64,000 nucleotides of DNA. It comes from Lactococcus termiticola (GTDB taxonomy: Bacteria; Bacillota; Bacilli; Lactobacillales; Streptococcaceae). This document shows, piece after piece, positions 27,591 to 61,664 of this stretch. Under the pieces are notes generated by a model. That model did not search any database. It had not been told where the DNA came from and saw only the letters and a list, made by a program, of their open reading frames with translations. The position numbers and the translations under genes are program-made. The first letter of the stretch is position 1. Each line of letters starts with the position of its first letter. The DNA lies in contig NZ_BFFO01000008.1 of NCBI RefSeq assembly GCF_003116835.1, forward strand, positions 1-64,000, given 5' to 3'.

Positions 27591-27596
27591 GAATTT

Positions 27597-27703
27597 ATCT
27601 TCAGGGCACCGTGAAATTCGGGACCGGCGGTTAAAGTCCGCGAGGCGAAAGCCTGATGTGGTGTAATTCCACAACCGACTGTACAGTCAGGATGGGAGAA
27701 GAT
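27597..27703 (+). ncRNA. FMN riboswitch (RFN element)
   Basis: The canonical conserved strings appear in order: TCAGGGCACCGTGAAATTC, GGACCGGCGGT, AGTCCGCGA, GAAAGCCTGA, AACCGAC and GTACAGTCAGGATGGGAGAAGA. P1 pairs ATCTTC (27597-27602) with GAAGAT (27698-27703). The 110-nt expression platform has TCCTC (27767-27771) able to pair with the GAGGA ribosome site of ribU, so translational control is plausible; no convincing terminator is seen. Confidence 0.97.
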
Positions 27704-27813
27704 GACAGTTTTTTGTCGGGCTTTTTGTGCTACCAGAAAGCTCCAACTTAATAATCTGCTATCTACTCCTCTGAATTTTGAAGAACTACTTTTTCATCTT
27801 TGGAGGATTTTTT

Positions 27814-29348: not shown

Positions 29349-29354
29349 ATGACT

Positions 29355-30242
29355 ATGATTATTCCAGAAGAATTAAAAAACTTTGAGGTCAAGTTTGATG
29401 CTCCCTTGTCAGATTACACCTTTACCAAGGTGGGTGGTCAGGCTGATATTTTAGCCTTTCCAAAGACAGTCGATGAGGTCGCCCAGCTAATCAAGTTGGC
29501 CAATAAGAGTGAAACCCCGTTGACTGTCCTTGGCAACGCCTCCAACCTGATTGTCAAAGACAGCGGGATTCGTGGCATGGTCATCCTGCTTGAAAAGCTC
29601 GACAAGGTCAACTATGCCGGCTACAGTCTTGAAGCTCAGGCTGGAGCCAAACTTATCGATGTCTCCCGCATTGCCCTCGAGCATAGCCTCTCTGGGCTTG
29701 AGTTTGCCTGCGGGATTCCTGGTTCTATCGGTGGCGCGGTCTACATGAATGCCGGTGCCTACGATGGCGAAATTTCGCATGTTCTAGCTTCATGCAAGGT
29801 CATCGACATGGAGGGCAATATCAAGGTCTTGAGCAAGGAAGACATGCGCTTTGGCTACCGCCAGTCGGCTGTTCAAAATGAAAAGCTGATTGTCTTATCA
29901 GCCAAGTTTGACCTGAAGGCCGGCGACCCGAGCCTGATCAAGGCTGACATGGACAAGTTTACCGAGCTCCGTGAGTCCAAGCAACCGCTGGAATACCCAA
30001 GCTGCGGCTCGGTCTTCAAGCGGCCGGCCGGCTATTTTGCTGGCCAGCTGATTCAAGAAGCGGGCTGCCAGGGCCACCGGATTGGTGGTGTTGAGGTTTC
30101 GACCAAGCATGCTGGCTTCATGGTCAATGTTGACCAGGGCACAGCCTCTGATTATATTGCCCTGATTGACTGGGTCATTGAGCAGGTCAAAGCCAAGTCT
30201 GGTGTGACCTTAGAGCCTGAAGTCCGGATCATCGGCGATTGA
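29355..30242 (+). CDS. murB: UDP-N-acetylenolpyruvoylglucosamine reductase
   Basis: 295 residues from ATG 29355 (an ATG two codons earlier is possible). MurB reduces UDP-GlcNAc-enolpyruvate to UDP-MurNAc for peptidoglycan. FAD-binding segments [13 protein letters not shown] and [35 protein letters not shown], the FGYRxS (RFGYRQSA) site and catalytic Ser in SCGSVFKRP are visible. No Shine-Dalgarno precedes it; see the promoter. murB followed by potABCD is a conserved streptococcal arrangement. Confidence 0.94.
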
Positions 30243-30267
30243 TTTTTGAAAAAAAATAGATTATAAT
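30239..30267 (+). promoter_or_regulatory. Promoter of the potA leader
   Basis: TTGATT (30239-30244), 17 nt, TATAAT (30262-30267). It overlaps the murB stop codon, so potABCD can be transcribed separately from murB. Confidence 0.75.
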
Positions 30268-30273
30268 AAAGAA

Positions 30274-30440
30274 AATTAAGCAGAAGAACGGGCGAAAGCT
30301 CGCTGCCGAATGAGGAGTCATCCTCAAGATTGAGTGGGGCAGCCCACTTGAAACTCACAACCGTGCTTGTGTACAATCAATTCAGTAGGATTCTGCAAGA
30401 GATTGAGTGCTAGAAGCCCGGTAAATCCGGGCATTTTTTA
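30274..30440 (+). ncRNA. Structured leader or small RNA before potA, unassigned
   Basis: About 165 nt between a strong promoter and an intrinsic terminator. Helices that can form: GGGC-GAAA-GCTC, GCTGCC with GGCAGC around TGAGGA-GTCA-TCCTCA, GTGGG-GCAG-CCCAC, CACAA-ccgtgc-TTGTG and TCAATT...AGATTGA. The 5' CGGGC (30289-30293) can pair with GCCCG of the terminator, giving an antiterminator alternative. I do not recognise it as a known riboswitch class. Confidence 0.6.
30413..30437 (+). terminator. Attenuator-type terminator before potA
   Basis: GCCCGG-TAAAT-CCGGGC then ATTTTTTATT, 18 nt before the potA start. It must be read through for potABCD expression from the leader promoter. Confidence 0.85.
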
Positions 30441-30454
30441 TTGGAGAAATACAG

Positions 30455-31606
30455 ATGGCTAAAAATATTATCGAATTCAAAAACATCCGCAAGGTCTATG
30501 ACGACAACGGCCAGGTAGTCTTAAAAGACATTAACCTGGAAATCGAAGAGGGCAAGTTTTATACGCTCCTCGGGGCTTCGGGCTCCGGTAAATCTACAAT
30601 TTTGAACATCATTGCGGGCTTTCTGGATGCGACCAGTGGCGACGTCTTTCTCGATGGCAAGCGGATCAACGACATTCCGGCCAACAAGCGGGACGTCCAC
30701 ACCATCTTCCAGAGCTACGCCCTCTTCCCCAACATGAACGTCTTTGACAATGTTGCCTTTGCTCTGAAAATCAAGGGCCGGCCAAAAGCTGAAATCGCAG
30801 AACGAGTCAGTGCCGCCCTCAAGCAGGTCCAGCTCACAGGCTTTGAAAAGCGGGGCATCAAGAAGCTCTCAGGCGGGCAACGTCAACGTGTCGCCATCGC
30901 CCGGGCCATCATCGACCAGCCCAAGGTCGTCCTGCTCGACGAGTCGCTCTCAGCCCTCGACCACAAGCTCAGAAAAGAAATGCAGTACGAGCTCCGTGAG
31001 CTCCAACAACGGCTTGGCATCACCTTTGTCTTTGTCACCCACGACCAGGAAGAGGCTCTGGCTATGAGCGACTGGATTTTTGTCATGAACGACGGCGAAA
31101 TCGTCCAATCCGGTACGCCCATCGACATCTACGACGAGCCAATCAACCATTTTGTTGCCGACTTTATTGGCGAATCCAACATCATCAAAGGGACAATGAT
31201 TCGAGACTATCTGGTCAAGTTCAACAACCAGGAATTTGAAGCCGTCGATGGCGGGATGCGAAACAACGAGCCCGTCGAAATTGTCATCCGGCCAGAAGAC
31301 CTCAGTTTTACCCTGCCTGACGAAGGTAAGTTCAACGTCAAGGTCGACACCCAGCTCTTCCGGGGGGTCCACTATGAGATTGTCGCCTATGATGATTTTG
31401 GCAATGAATGGCTGATCCACTCAACCCACAAGGCCATCGAGGGCGAGCGGGTAGGCCTCGACTTTGAGCCTGAAGCCATCCACGTCATGCGACTCCATGA
31501 GACCGAAGAAGACTTTGATGCCCGTATCGAAGAATATGTCGAAGAAGAAGAGGCGACCGTAGGTCTGGTCGCTGCCATCGAGGAGGAAGAAGCAGAAAAT
31601 GACTAG
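30455..31606 (+). CDS. potA: Spermidine/putrescine ABC transporter ATPase PotA
   Basis: 383 residues. Walker [10 protein letters not shown] (about 43-51), Q-loop [10 protein letters not shown], signature [14 protein letters not shown], Walker [13 protein letters not shown] and the H-loop THDQEEAL are intact. A TOBE-type regulatory domain follows ([14 protein letters not shown]). The last 40 residues are strongly acidic ([12 protein letters not shown]...EEEEAEND), an unusual tail also known from lactococcal PotA. It overlaps potB by 8 nt. TTGGAGAAATAC precedes the ATG. Confidence 0.95.
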
Positions 31607-32405
31607 CCTTTATAAAAAGTTATATGCCATTCCCTACTATCTCTGGCTGGGTCTCTTTGTGATTATCCCGCTGGTCATGCTCCTCTGGCAGAGCTTTTCG
31701 ACGACGGGTTCTGACACGGTCAGTTTTGACAATTACATTGCTTATTTCAGCACGCCGACCTATCTCTTGATGACCTGGAACTCGGTCGTCTACGCCCTGA
31801 TTGTGACGGTCCTGACCCTGGTCATCAGCTATCCGGTCGCCTATATCCTGACCCGGCTCAAGTACAAGCAACTCTGGCTGATGCTGATTATCCTGCCGAC
31901 CTGGATTAACCTCTTGCTCAAGACCTACGCCTTCATCGGGATTTTTGGCCAATATGGCTCTGTCAATAACTTCCTGACTTTCGTCGGCCTTGGCCGTCAT
32001 CAGATTCTCTTTACAGATGCTAGCTTTATCATTGTGGCCAGTTATATCTCGATTCCATTTATGATTTTGCCAATTTTTAATGCTTTAGAAGAAATGGACG
32101 ATAATCTGGTTGATGCTGCAAGAGACCTTGGAGCCAATGGCTTTCAGACCTTCATCAGGGTTGTCTGGCCACTGTCGCTCAACGGCGTCCGCTCGGGTGT
32201 CCAGGCTGTCTTCATTCCTTCTCTATCCCTATTTATGCTGACCCGCCTGATTGGTGGTAACAAGGTCATCACACTGGGGACAGCGGTCGAAGAGCATTTC
32301 TTGACCACACAAAACTGGGGAATGGGCTCGACCATTGCCATTATCCTGGTCCTGGCCATGGTTCTTATCATGTACCTGACCCGAGAAAGGGGGGACAAAA
32401 AATGA
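31599..32405 (+). CDS. potB: Spermidine/putrescine ABC transporter permease PotB
   Basis: 268 residues with six membrane segments and the permease EAA loop ([32 protein letters not shown]). First permease of the polyamine importer, pairing with PotC. It starts inside the end of potA and overlaps potC by 4 nt. Confidence 0.94.
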
Positions 32406-33202
32406 AGCATAAGCACAAGACCGGAAAAGTCTACCTCGCCTTTGTCCTCGTCCTCCTTTATCTGCCGATTTTCTACCTGATTTTTTACGCCTTCAATGCT
32501 GGAGGCGACATGAGCAAGTTTACCGGCTTCACTTGGGAAAATTTCCAGACCTTGTTTGCCGATAGCCGGCTGATTTTGATTGTCGTTGAGACCTTCTTTT
32601 TGGCCTTCCTGAGCTCGCTGATTGCGACCATTATCGGGACCTTTGGAGCCATCGCCATCTCAAGTCTTAGACAAAAGCGAAAGGACACGGTCCTTGGCCT
32701 TAACAATGTCTTGATGGTATCGCCAGACGTCGTGATTGGGGCGAGCTTTCTGATTCTCTTTTCAGCCCTGGGCCTCCAGCTTGGCTTTGTGTCTGTACTT
32801 TTGGCTCACATCGCCTTCAGTATACCTATTGTGGTCTTGATGGTCCTCCCCTTATATCAAGAGATGGACAAGAGCCTGGTTAATGCCGCCCATGACCTGG
32901 GAGCCAGCAGACTCCAGGCCATGAAAGAAGTGGTCGTTCCCTTCTTGACACCGGGGATTATCGCTGGCTTCTTCATGGCCTTTACTTATTCGCTCGACGA
33001 CTTTGCTGTGACCTTCTTTGTGACGGGGAATAGCTTTACCACGCTTTCTGTCGAGATTTATTCACGGGCTCGTGAAGGCATTAGCCTTGAGATTAACGCC
33101 CTCTCTGCGATTGTATTTCTCTTTTCAATCCTGCTGGTCATAGGTTATTATATGATTATGAGGGATTCTGACACCGCCGGTAAGGCACCAAATATTGGTT
33201 AG
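32402..33202 (+). CDS. potC: Spermidine/putrescine ABC transporter permease PotC
   Basis: 266 residues with six membrane segments and the EAA loop (SLVNAAHDLGASRLQAMKEVVVPFLTPGIIAG). FTYSLDDFAVTFFVTG is a PotC-type segment. It shares ATGA with the potB end and is followed 12 nt later by potD, with an AGGAGG site between. Confidence 0.94.
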   Translation: MKHKHKTGKVYLAFVLVLLYLPIFYLIFYAFNAGGDMSKFTGFTWENFQTLFADSRLILIVVETFFLAFLSSLIATIIGTFGAIAISSLRQKRKDTVLGLNNVLMVSPDVVIGASFLILFSALGLQLGFVSVLLAHIAFSIPIVVLMVLPLYQEMDKSLVNAAHDLGASRLQAMKEVVVPFLTPGIIAGFFMAFTYSLDDFAVTFFVTGNSFTTLSVEIYSRAREGISLEINALSAIVFLFSILLVIGYYMIMRDSDTAGKAPNIG

Positions 33203-33214
33203 GAGGTCTGCATT

Positions 33215-34282
33215 ATGAAAAAATTAATCTACTTTATGTCTGCCGTCCTGGTCCTTATTTTAGTCCTCGGTGGCCTTTCTTGGAAGCTGTCAACAGAAGC
33301 CCGAGGCTCTAGCGATAAGAAGAGTCTGACCATCTTTAACTGGGGCGAATACATTGACCCAGATCTCATTAGCAAGTTTGAAGCTAAGTCTGGCTACAAG
33401 GTCAACTATGTGACCTTTGACAGCAACGAAGCCATGTACGCCAAGGTTAAACAGGGCGGAACAGCCTATGATTTGGTCGTGCCGTCTGAATACATGGTCC
33501 AAAAAATGGCTGACGAAGGCCTACTCGACCAGCTCGACCACAGTAAAATCAAGGGTCTTGACAATATCGACAAGAACCTTCTCAATCCTGTTTTTGACCG
33601 GGGCAATCGCTATTCGATTCCTTATTTCTGGGGGACGCTTGGTATTGTCTACAATGACAAGTTCATCAAAAATCCACCAACAAGCTGGGAGGAGCTCTGG
33701 AAGCCTGACTACAAAAACTCAATTCTCCTGACCGATGATACTCGAGACGTCATGGGCATGGGCCTGATGACGACTGGTAGCTCCGTCAACAGTAGTAATC
33801 CCAAGGAAATCAGCAAGGCCTACGACAAGCTCAGCCAGCTCACGCCCAACGTCAAGGCCATCCTCGGCGACGAAATCATGAACTACATGGTCAACAATGA
33901 GACACCGCTTGCCGTGTGTTATTCAGGGCAGGCCTCAGAGATGATCGATGCTAACGAGCACCTGCATTATGTCGTCCCAAAGACCACCAACGTCTGGTAT
34001 GATAACCTCGCTATTCCAAAAACAGCCAAGAACATCGACGGTGCCTACGCCTTCATCAACTTTATGCTGGAGGCCAAGAACGCGGCTCAAAATGCTGACT
34101 ACGTCGGCTATTCTACCCCAAACAAGAAGGCAGAAGCCCTGCTCGACGACGATGTCAAGAACGACAAGGCCTTTTATCCAGATGAAGCAACCATCAAGCG
34201 GGATGAAGCCTACACCAATCTTAGTCAGGAGTTGACTGAGCGCTATAATGACCTTTATTTGCAGTTTAAGATGCATAGATAA
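33215..34282 (+). CDS. potD: Spermidine/putrescine-binding protein PotD
   Basis: 355 residues. A signal or anchor helix (about 4-22) is followed by an SBP fold with TIFNWGEYIDPDL, YDLVVPSEYMVQKM and IPYFWGTLGIVYND, all conserved in PotD. No lipobox cysteine occurs in the signal region, so it appears to be held by an uncleaved helix rather than as a lipoprotein, unlike many Gram-positive binding proteins. Last gene of potABCD. Confidence 0.94.
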   Translation: MKKLIYFMSAVLVLILVLGGLSWKLSTEARGSSDKKSLTIFNWGEYIDPDLISKFEAKSGYKVNYVTFDSNEAMYAKVKQGGTAYDLVVPSEYMVQKMADEGLLDQLDHSKIKGLDNIDKNLLNPVFDRGNRYSIPYFWGTLGIVYNDKFIKNPPTSWEELWKPDYKNSILLTDDTRDVMGMGLMTTGSSVNSSNPKEISKAYDKLSQLTPNVKAILGDEIMNYMVNNETPLAVCYSGQASEMIDANEHLHYVVPKTTNVWYDNLAIPKTAKNIDGAYAFINFMLEAKNAAQNADYVGYSTPNKKAEALLDDDVKNDKAFYPDEATIKRDEAYTNLSQELTERYNDLYLQFKMHR

Positions 34283-40983: not shown

Positions 40984-41033
40984 GTACAAAAAAAACTGAA
41001 TTCCTCGGAGTCATCTCAGCAAGAAATTCAGTT
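40984..41033 (-). terminator. Attenuator-like hairpin upstream of trmL
   Basis: On the minus strand AACTGAATT (41023-41031) pairs with AATTCAGTT (40995 region) around an inner CTGAG-ATGA-CTCCGAG, followed by a run of T. It ends about 25 nt before the trmL start. There is no upstream minus-strand gene to terminate, so it is a leader attenuator or the end of a short RNA. Confidence 0.55.
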
Positions 41034-41202
41034 GCGGGCTTAATTCACTTTAATCATAACAGGTGTGATTGAAATAAATTAAGGTTATAGCTATATTATC
41101 ATTTTTTAAGCTTCTTGTAAAGGATAAAGTGAGAAAAATTCAGCGACTAGCCTGATTTTTGATATAATAAGAGAAGATTATAAAATGTAAAGGATTAAAA
41201 AG

Positions 41203-61488: not shown

Positions 61489-61544
61489 TTTTTTACCTCC
61501 ATTTTATTTTGTTCGCATTGATTTCCTATTTTGCAATAAAAAAT

Positions 61545-61658
61545 CTCCGCGACCAAAAGACACAGAGAGTTCAATCATTTCTAAGTTAGAAAGTTGTCCT
61601 CGGTAGGATGTTTACGGCTTTTAGCCCCCTACTGTCTTCGGTCAGTTCTTAACGAACT
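61545..61658 (-). ncRNA. Ribosomal protein L10 leader
   Basis: On the minus strand the strings GACAGTAGGGGGCTAAAAGC and CATCCTACCGAGGACA, followed by a CGCGGAGATTTTTT terminator-like end (61540 region), match the L10 leader family, through which the L10-L12 complex represses its own operon. Confidence 0.9.
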
Positions 61659-61664
61659 TTAACT

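Follow-up and report, generated by a model that had tools for sequence, protein, structure and literature searches.

A candidate transcription attenuator ahead of potABCD in Lactococcus termiticola and its possible descent from the ldcC/SpF59 RNA

What kind of RNA is encoded between murB and potA in Lactococcus termiticola, and how does it relate to the RNAs found at the same place in other genomes? The 64,000-nucleotide stretch of DNA analyzed here (the window) belongs to a genome of 1.73 Mb in 22 contigs (G000; its genus is labelled g1). An earlier reading of the sequence, the original prediction, proposed an unassigned attenuator-type leader controlling potABCD, with an independent small RNA as an alternative. 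We propose that this RNA attenuates transcription of potABCD and that it most likely descends, in strongly altered and shortened form, from the ldcC/SpF59 RNA (RF02440), a reading to which we assign a probability of about 0.55.

Anatomy of the murB-potA region

The features of the locus are collected in Table 1. The -35 box (TTGATT, 30239-30244) overlaps the murB stop codon and is separated by a 17-nt spacer from the -10 box (TATAAT, 30262-30267), the two matching 10 of 12 consensus positions. The promoter elements claimed in the original prediction are thus present, but a scan of 2.5 kb lists eight promoter-like sites, of which six reach 10/12, which makes the promoter call by itself weak. 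A second promoter-like site lies inside the leader (TTGAAA-18-TACAAT, 30348-30377, + strand, 10/12), and a start there would yield a shorter transcript without the P5 hairpin; a further site (30442-30471, 9/12) overlaps the start of potA.

The predicted leader of about 165 nt ending in a perfect GC-rich terminator just before potA is borne out. The terminator stem (30416-30432) is perfect, with six GC pairs, the most among the five terminator-like sites in the scan, and is followed by A and TTTTTT (T-run, 30434-30439). The T-run ends 15 nt ahead of the potA start codon (ATG at 30455), and GGAG is found at 30443-30446. The description of the leader as highly structured holds in part: the 217-nt stretch that includes the promoter and the terminator folds at z -4.07 (0/200 shuffles as good), but positions 30274-30412 alone have modest structure (z -2.1; 11/300 shuffles as good). 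The leader is single-copy in its own genome, where the second-best match to 30200-30480 has an E-value of 0.12. A leader peptide was considered and rejected, the ORFs in the leader having no obvious Shine-Dalgarno sequence by eye.

Table 1. Features of the murB-potABCD locus (window coordinates)
Feature	Position	Strand	Basis or remark
murB	29349-30242	+	Upstream of the leader; NCBIfam PRK13905 and TIGR00179 above cut-offs
Promoter-like TTGATT-17-TATAAT	30239-30267	+	Consensus match, by itself no evidence of function
Leader RNA	30274-30439	+	About 166 nt; start near 30274 inferred from the -10 box
P1 5' strand GCAGAA	30280-30285	+	Can pair with UUCUGC at 30391-30396
Small hairpin CGGGC-GAAA-GCUCG	30289-30302	+	Contains the antiterminator strand of the original prediction
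Hairpin after GCCGAA	30311-30326	+	Placed as in the ldcC RNA; predicted fold
AUUGA	30329-30333	+	Could pair with UCAAU 30377-30381; possible counterpart of the UUAUUGAU/UCAAUAA helix
Hairpin motif GAGTGGGGCAGCCCACTT	30332-30349	+	Found in two family genomes (see text)
P5 hairpin CACAA-CCGUGC-UUGUG	30356-30371	+	30360-30368 is the proposed antiterminator strand
P1 3' strand UUCUGC	30391-30396	+	Predicted fold
Terminator 5' arm region AAGCCCGGU	30414-30422	+	8/9 positions pair with 30360-30368 in the antiterminator
Intrinsic terminator GCCCGG-TAAAT-CCGGGC and T-run	30416-30439	+	Sequence; terminator scan
potA	30455-31606	+	First gene of potABCD; nearest NCBIfam name PotA, below curated cut-off
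potB	31599-32405		ORF; nearest NCBIfam name PotB, below curated cut-off
potC	32402-33202		ORF; identity inferred from position
potD	33215-34282		ORF; nearest NCBIfam name PotD, below curated cut-off

Elsewhere in the window, three RNAs score above the Rfam gathering score: an FMN riboswitch (27593-27707, + strand) ahead of a 202-aa membrane-protein-like ORF, a 23S-methyl RNA motif (40989-41084, - strand) and a ribosomal protein L10 leader (61529-61659, - strand).

Competing folds and a proposed switch

Folding predictions for the leader ahead of the terminator place a structure with P1 0.3 kcal/mol above the minimum free energy (MFE), and one that combines P1, an inner helix and P5 at -40.6 versus -42.6 kcal/mol, 2.0 kcal/mol above it. 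Once the terminator arm is added (the arm stage), the MFE structure, at -52.1 kcal/mol, pairs ACCG-U-GCUU of P5 (30360-30368) with AAGC-C-CGGU (30414-30422). The gain of 9.5 kcal/mol upon addition of the arm is equaled in 4 of 500 shuffles; all six arm letters are paired upstream in 73 of 500 shuffles, and the window pairs five. For the full transcript, the terminator (-55.7 kcal/mol) is favored by 2.1 kcal/mol over the antiterminator (-53.6 kcal/mol). As modeled, these energies have the balance expected of an attenuator.

The original prediction held that pairing of CGGGC near the 5' end with the terminator arm gives mutually exclusive folds. The calculations support mutually exclusive folds, but not CGGGC as the main antiterminator partner. 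CGGGC (30289-30293) does form the best isolated duplex with GCCCG of the terminator arm (-11.3 kcal/mol), but forcing this pairing at the arm stage gives -44.6 kcal/mol, 7.5 kcal/mol worse than the pairing with P5. We therefore rejected CGGGC in this role; judging from the predicted energies, it is probably not the main antiterminator partner.

Together, the anatomy and the competing folds support the predicted attenuator architecture upstream of potABCD. In the mechanism that we propose, RNA polymerase would initiate at the promoter that overlaps the murB stop codon. With the sensing part unengaged, the P5 strand 30360-30368 would capture the first arm of the terminator at 30414-30422 and transcription would read through into potA; a sensing fold that keeps P5 closed would allow the terminator to form and would stop transcription before potA. 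The signal, we infer, is likely to be a polyamine or a closely related compound, and abundant polyamine would switch import off. An explicit terminator/antiterminator pair is thereby proposed.

The ldcC/SpF59 RNA in relatives and its relation to the window leader

The ldcC motif was reportedly described by Weinberg et al. in 2017. Among the genomes of the genus that were drawn, PotA was found in all 18, and of the 17 besides the window genome, 16 have an RF02440 match (E <= 0.01). In each of the 16, potA is preceded on its own strand by a copy at a distance of 0.2-1.1 kb; the exception, G006 (71% complete), has a murB-potA gap of 53 nt without an RNA. The remark in the original prediction that no known class was recognized is therefore not supported for the slot, though the window itself is unmatched; likewise, the comparison with existing RNA families that it suggested is positive for the relatives but negative for the window leader. 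Three genomes (G013, G011, and G008) have two RF02440 matches each, one ahead of potA and one elsewhere. The second copy of G013 (L123) and the only copy of G018 (L126) precede a decarboxylase-like gene. G018 also has, upstream of potA, a stretch (TTTACTATGTGGACTCTAAACT, L113:848-902) similar to the 3' end of the ldcC RNA, with E-values of 0.07 when 4 kb are searched and 2.5 when 71 kb are; it is possibly a decayed ldcC copy.

In the family draw, 87/196 genomes match RF02440 at E <= 0.01 and 33/196 are over the cut-off. In the genus that we take to be Streptococcus (g5), the RNA is followed by an Orn/Lys/Arg decarboxylase-like ORF at 7/7 loci (L137, L138, L139, L142, L144, L145, and L151); PF01276 was confirmed for the decarboxylase ORFs of L126 and L138. 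In the phylum draw, E <= 0.001 is reached in 17/398 genomes, each of which also passes the cut-off. From translations read by eye, the next ORF at all 17 loci looks like a polyamine synthesis gene: a decarboxylase at four, an adenosylmethionine decarboxylase (speD) at six, and a saccharopine-dehydrogenase-like protein at seven. An HMM check places the ORF at L165 above the cut-off for SpeD; for the ORF at L156, which is truncated by the end of the locus, the closest model is carboxynorspermidine synthase, below the curated cut-off. The slot-sharing RNA family thus sits on polyamine genes in relatives, which supports the polyamine connection put forward originally. The pneumococcal namesake of RF02440 (F59/srn235/Spd_sr49) lies between SP0915 and SP0916, is 327 nt long by published coordinates and is catalogued as an sRNA in the available portions of PMC3395615 and PMC12323649. 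Given that the RNA precedes a decarboxylase-like ORF at the seven g5 loci and that F59 itself lies before SP0916, F59 probably acts in cis, as a leader, and not as a trans-acting sRNA.

RNAalifold gave few helices on an alignment of 24 ldcC sequences (A1), so we drew up the family structure, with pseudoknot-type helices, manually on the model of a single sequence (L153) and then counted its pairs. In A1, 91.2% of cells are paired versus 85.1% in shuffles, a figure that leans towards the structure because of its origin in one member, and two-sided changes occur in 50 cells versus 15; 0/500 shuffles are as high for either measure, and the number of additional pair types is at chance level (111/500). 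The CGG/CCG pairing around the core is invariant (24/24), six of the eight pairs in the UUAUUGAU/UCAAUAA helix never vary, and in L015 and L153 the conserved RNA continues for about 130-150 nt downstream of the 54 positions matched by Rfam.

The proposed pairing of the terminator with P5 has parallels in the family. In 31 of 43 elements, the first terminator arm pairs best with the P5 segment that immediately precedes UCAAU, a count in which L168 was scored with a wrong index (corrected for the swap comparison below) and the best site of L160 is at the region edge. The 43 elements are 45 ldcC RNAs, the window leader and the leader of genome G034 (see below), minus L127, L154, and L169, for which the script found no terminator, and L123, whose terminator is implausible; near-identical g5 elements are retained, the window terminator, missed by the script, was entered by hand, and the hairpins of L015, L150, L153, and L165 were trimmed by hand. 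In 25 hand-chosen representatives of the 43, native combinations of arm and P5 pair better on average than swapped ones (mean -12.4 versus -9.96, sd 0.43; 0/5000 permutations), figures that are inflated by kinship. Taken singly, many elements pair better with a foreign arm (own-arm ranks up to 24), and the window arm fits its own P5 no better than other arms do (rank 14/25). The arm-stage MFE structure has the P5 pairing in 12/43 elements, among them the window and not G034, whose arm gains nothing at this stage.

By direct test, the window RNA is not a member of RF02440. Rfam searches yield no RF02440 match in the window at the gathering cut-off (37.2 bits), none in its own genome under stricter filters, and none on the leader alone up to E 10; the leader also matches no other Rfam family at a useful score, SAM-I included. 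We thus rejected assignment to a known Rfam family. A covariance model (R1) of 15 lactococcal-type RNAs, covering 153 positions from the CGGACAG core onward, recovers members from g5 with scores of 33-35 bits (E about 1e-7) but has no match at the leader in a search of the 64-kb window; unfiltered, it places 30287-30408 at 2.6 bits (E 2.6), rank 4/16 in 5 kb. Sequence profiles, whether built on the whole ldcC RNA or on its 3' segment, give no match in the window leader. Reading of positions 30274-30412 likewise finds neither the conserved letters GGACAGCC nor the UUGACC/GGGUCAA pairing, and the window RNA differs from the ldcC RNA also in its lack of the P3 and P4 hairpins.

What the window leader has in common with the ldcC RNA is its place and an ordered series of landmarks. 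Both occupy the murB-potA slot and end in a terminator ahead of a polyamine gene, and the P5 pairing seen in the arm-stage MFE is a second family feature found in the window, with a CUU segment in P5. The P1 letters GCAGAA are those of the closing helix in several lactococcal ldcC RNAs, and the hairpin after GCCGAA is placed alike. A possible counterpart of the invariant CGG/CCG would be 30289-30291 with 30306-30308, though three pairs are weak evidence and the CGG pairs elsewhere in the predicted folds, in the small hairpin. AUUGA and UCAAU are also present, as a possible counterpart of the UUAUUGAU/UCAAUAA helix; forcing them together with P1 and P5 costs 6.6 kcal/mol relative to the MFE, and GAUUG/CAAUC costs 2.0. 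In whole-leader alignments, the window scores z 3.9 (1/500 shuffles) against 16 of the 24 sequences in A1 (the lactococcal L098 and 15 that are not from g1/g2) and z 1.8 (24/500) against the eight other g1/g2 RNAs; by the same yardstick, six known ldcC members score z 8-30.

Given that the direct match failed, the case for descent is a chain from the window to G034 to ldcC, together with the common slot. G034 is a genome of genus g2, and blastn ties its leader (L002:1477-1645), which precedes potA by about 0.9 kb, to the window leader over 50 nt (E 9.3e-4). Similar-size matches occur in two other genomes (E 0.0017 and 0.0082) on contigs without potA, so it is position that sets the G034 match apart. 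The motif GAGTGGGGCAGCCCACTT, with one mismatch allowed, is present in 2 of 245 family genomes, the window's and G034, exact and upstream of potA in both, and the two leaders align at z 5.0 (0/500 shuffles). They share 20 identical nucleotides of the hairpin, a P5-like ACAA..UUGU hairpin, a promoter-like site and a terminator, with potA downstream. Unlike the window leader, the G034 leader has no 5' domain, contains UAUAGACUC and is separated from potA by an ORF that reads by eye as an SDR enzyme. A search of 71 kb with the ldcC 3' segment finds the 3' end of the G034 leader, AGTATTAAGGGCTTTGCCGTATAGACTC, at E 0.0079 (0/1000 shuffles); the TATAGACTC part of this end is absent from the window leader. 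Whole-leader alignments of G034 to ldcC give z -0.1 (257/500 shuffles) and 1.7 (23/500), and R1 does not detect the G034 leader. On this chain we would put descent from the ldcC RNA at somewhat above even odds.

Alternative origins and the likely signal

The failure of the covariance model and of the profiles on the window, and the missing ldcC letters, would also be expected if an unrelated RNA, possibly a new riboswitch class, had replaced the ldcC RNA and the likeness reflected convergence on the slot and on terminator logic. The potA slot can hold other RNAs, given that many streptococci carry a different conserved leader there. We nevertheless consider replacement unlikely: the P1 letters, the order of landmarks, and the position of P5 are common to ldcC, the alignment to 16 ldcC RNAs stands above shuffles, and G034 provides an intermediate with the ldcC 3' end. 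The lost core can alternatively be read as decay, the aptamer having disappeared and the leader setting a fixed level of termination without sensing, and both the modest structure outside the terminator and the absence of the polyamine enzymes sought in the genome (see below) fit such a remnant. The presence of a promoter-like site, a perfect terminator and a competing antiterminator whose gain few shuffles reach, and the retention of the hairpin motif in a second genus, make this quite unlikely in our judgment. We regard as very improbable an independent trans-acting small RNA of about 166 nt, with potA expressed through low-level read-through or from a different promoter. In its favor are a promoter-like site and a terminator belonging to the leader, the 9/12 site over the potA start and the cataloguing of F59 as an sRNA, but the T-run ends just ahead of potA and the family precedes polyamine genes at the 17 phylum-sample loci.

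A strongly derived ldcC descendant thus remains the reading that we prefer. A more specific version of it, which is tentative and in our view rather unlikely, is that the window and G034 RNAs dropped the ldcC core and rebuilt a smaller polyamine sensor from the hairpin and P5, with a changed or relaxed choice of ligand, in a species that is seemingly import-only. Relatives holding GGACAGCC together with the GTGGGGCAGCCCAC hairpin would be intermediates with the ldcC RNA.

HMM searches found no OKR decarboxylase in the window genome (the same search was positive in 4/14 control genomes) and no spermidine synthase (positive in 11/14). Control of uptake makes sense in such a genome; PotABCD is likely the source of polyamine for the cell, and a switch that polyamine turns off would be the simplest logic. 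The ldcC RNA occurs on polyamine import genes (potABCD, in lactococci) and on three kinds of synthesis genes (decarboxylase, speD, and carboxynorspermidine-synthase-like), which points to a common polyamine rather than lysine as its signal. If the window RNA belongs here, it would illustrate the degree to which such a sensor can be shortened. Lactococcus potABCD is, moreover, a harmless system for laboratory work.

No ligand for the ldcC RNA turned up in the literature searched, and none of the papers in it names RF02440; the available parts of PMC5603721, PMC13109727, PMC8632094, and PMC11477304 mention no such leader. The available part of PMC10853860 describes a spermidine riboswitch that is a variant of SAM-I and expects further polyamine classes; we met no other polyamine riboswitch in the literature searched, and the terms "ldcC motif" and "ldcC RNA" are absent from that paper. 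Like the element proposed here, the spermidine riboswitch controls polyamine genes by transcription termination, as described in that portion; unlike the window leader, it has a SAM-I fold. An attenuator upstream of potABCD, the ABC-leader, has been shown in Haemophilus and Pasteurella, according to the portion of PMC2965389 available; it resembles the window leader in architecture and place but is from Gammaproteobacteria.

The streptococcal potA leader mentioned above deserves separate description. It is highly conserved, lies directly ahead of potA in many streptococci, and follows the pattern AGGGGGUGAAAGCCUAUCG...AGAGGUAG...GGCCUGACAGAGCC...UCUGU...AAAGAAGGAAU, which is found at 42/80 potA upstream loci (in L030 at about 1879-2000); related forms occur in L033, L084, and L112. 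The leader in L030 has no Rfam match better than E 1.7. It has a variable hairpin with changes that look compensatory by eye, and another hairpin near the Shine-Dalgarno sequence; a rough alignment (n=14) gives eight RNAalifold pairs, one with a two-sided change. This leader is a possible second polyamine-related regulatory RNA.
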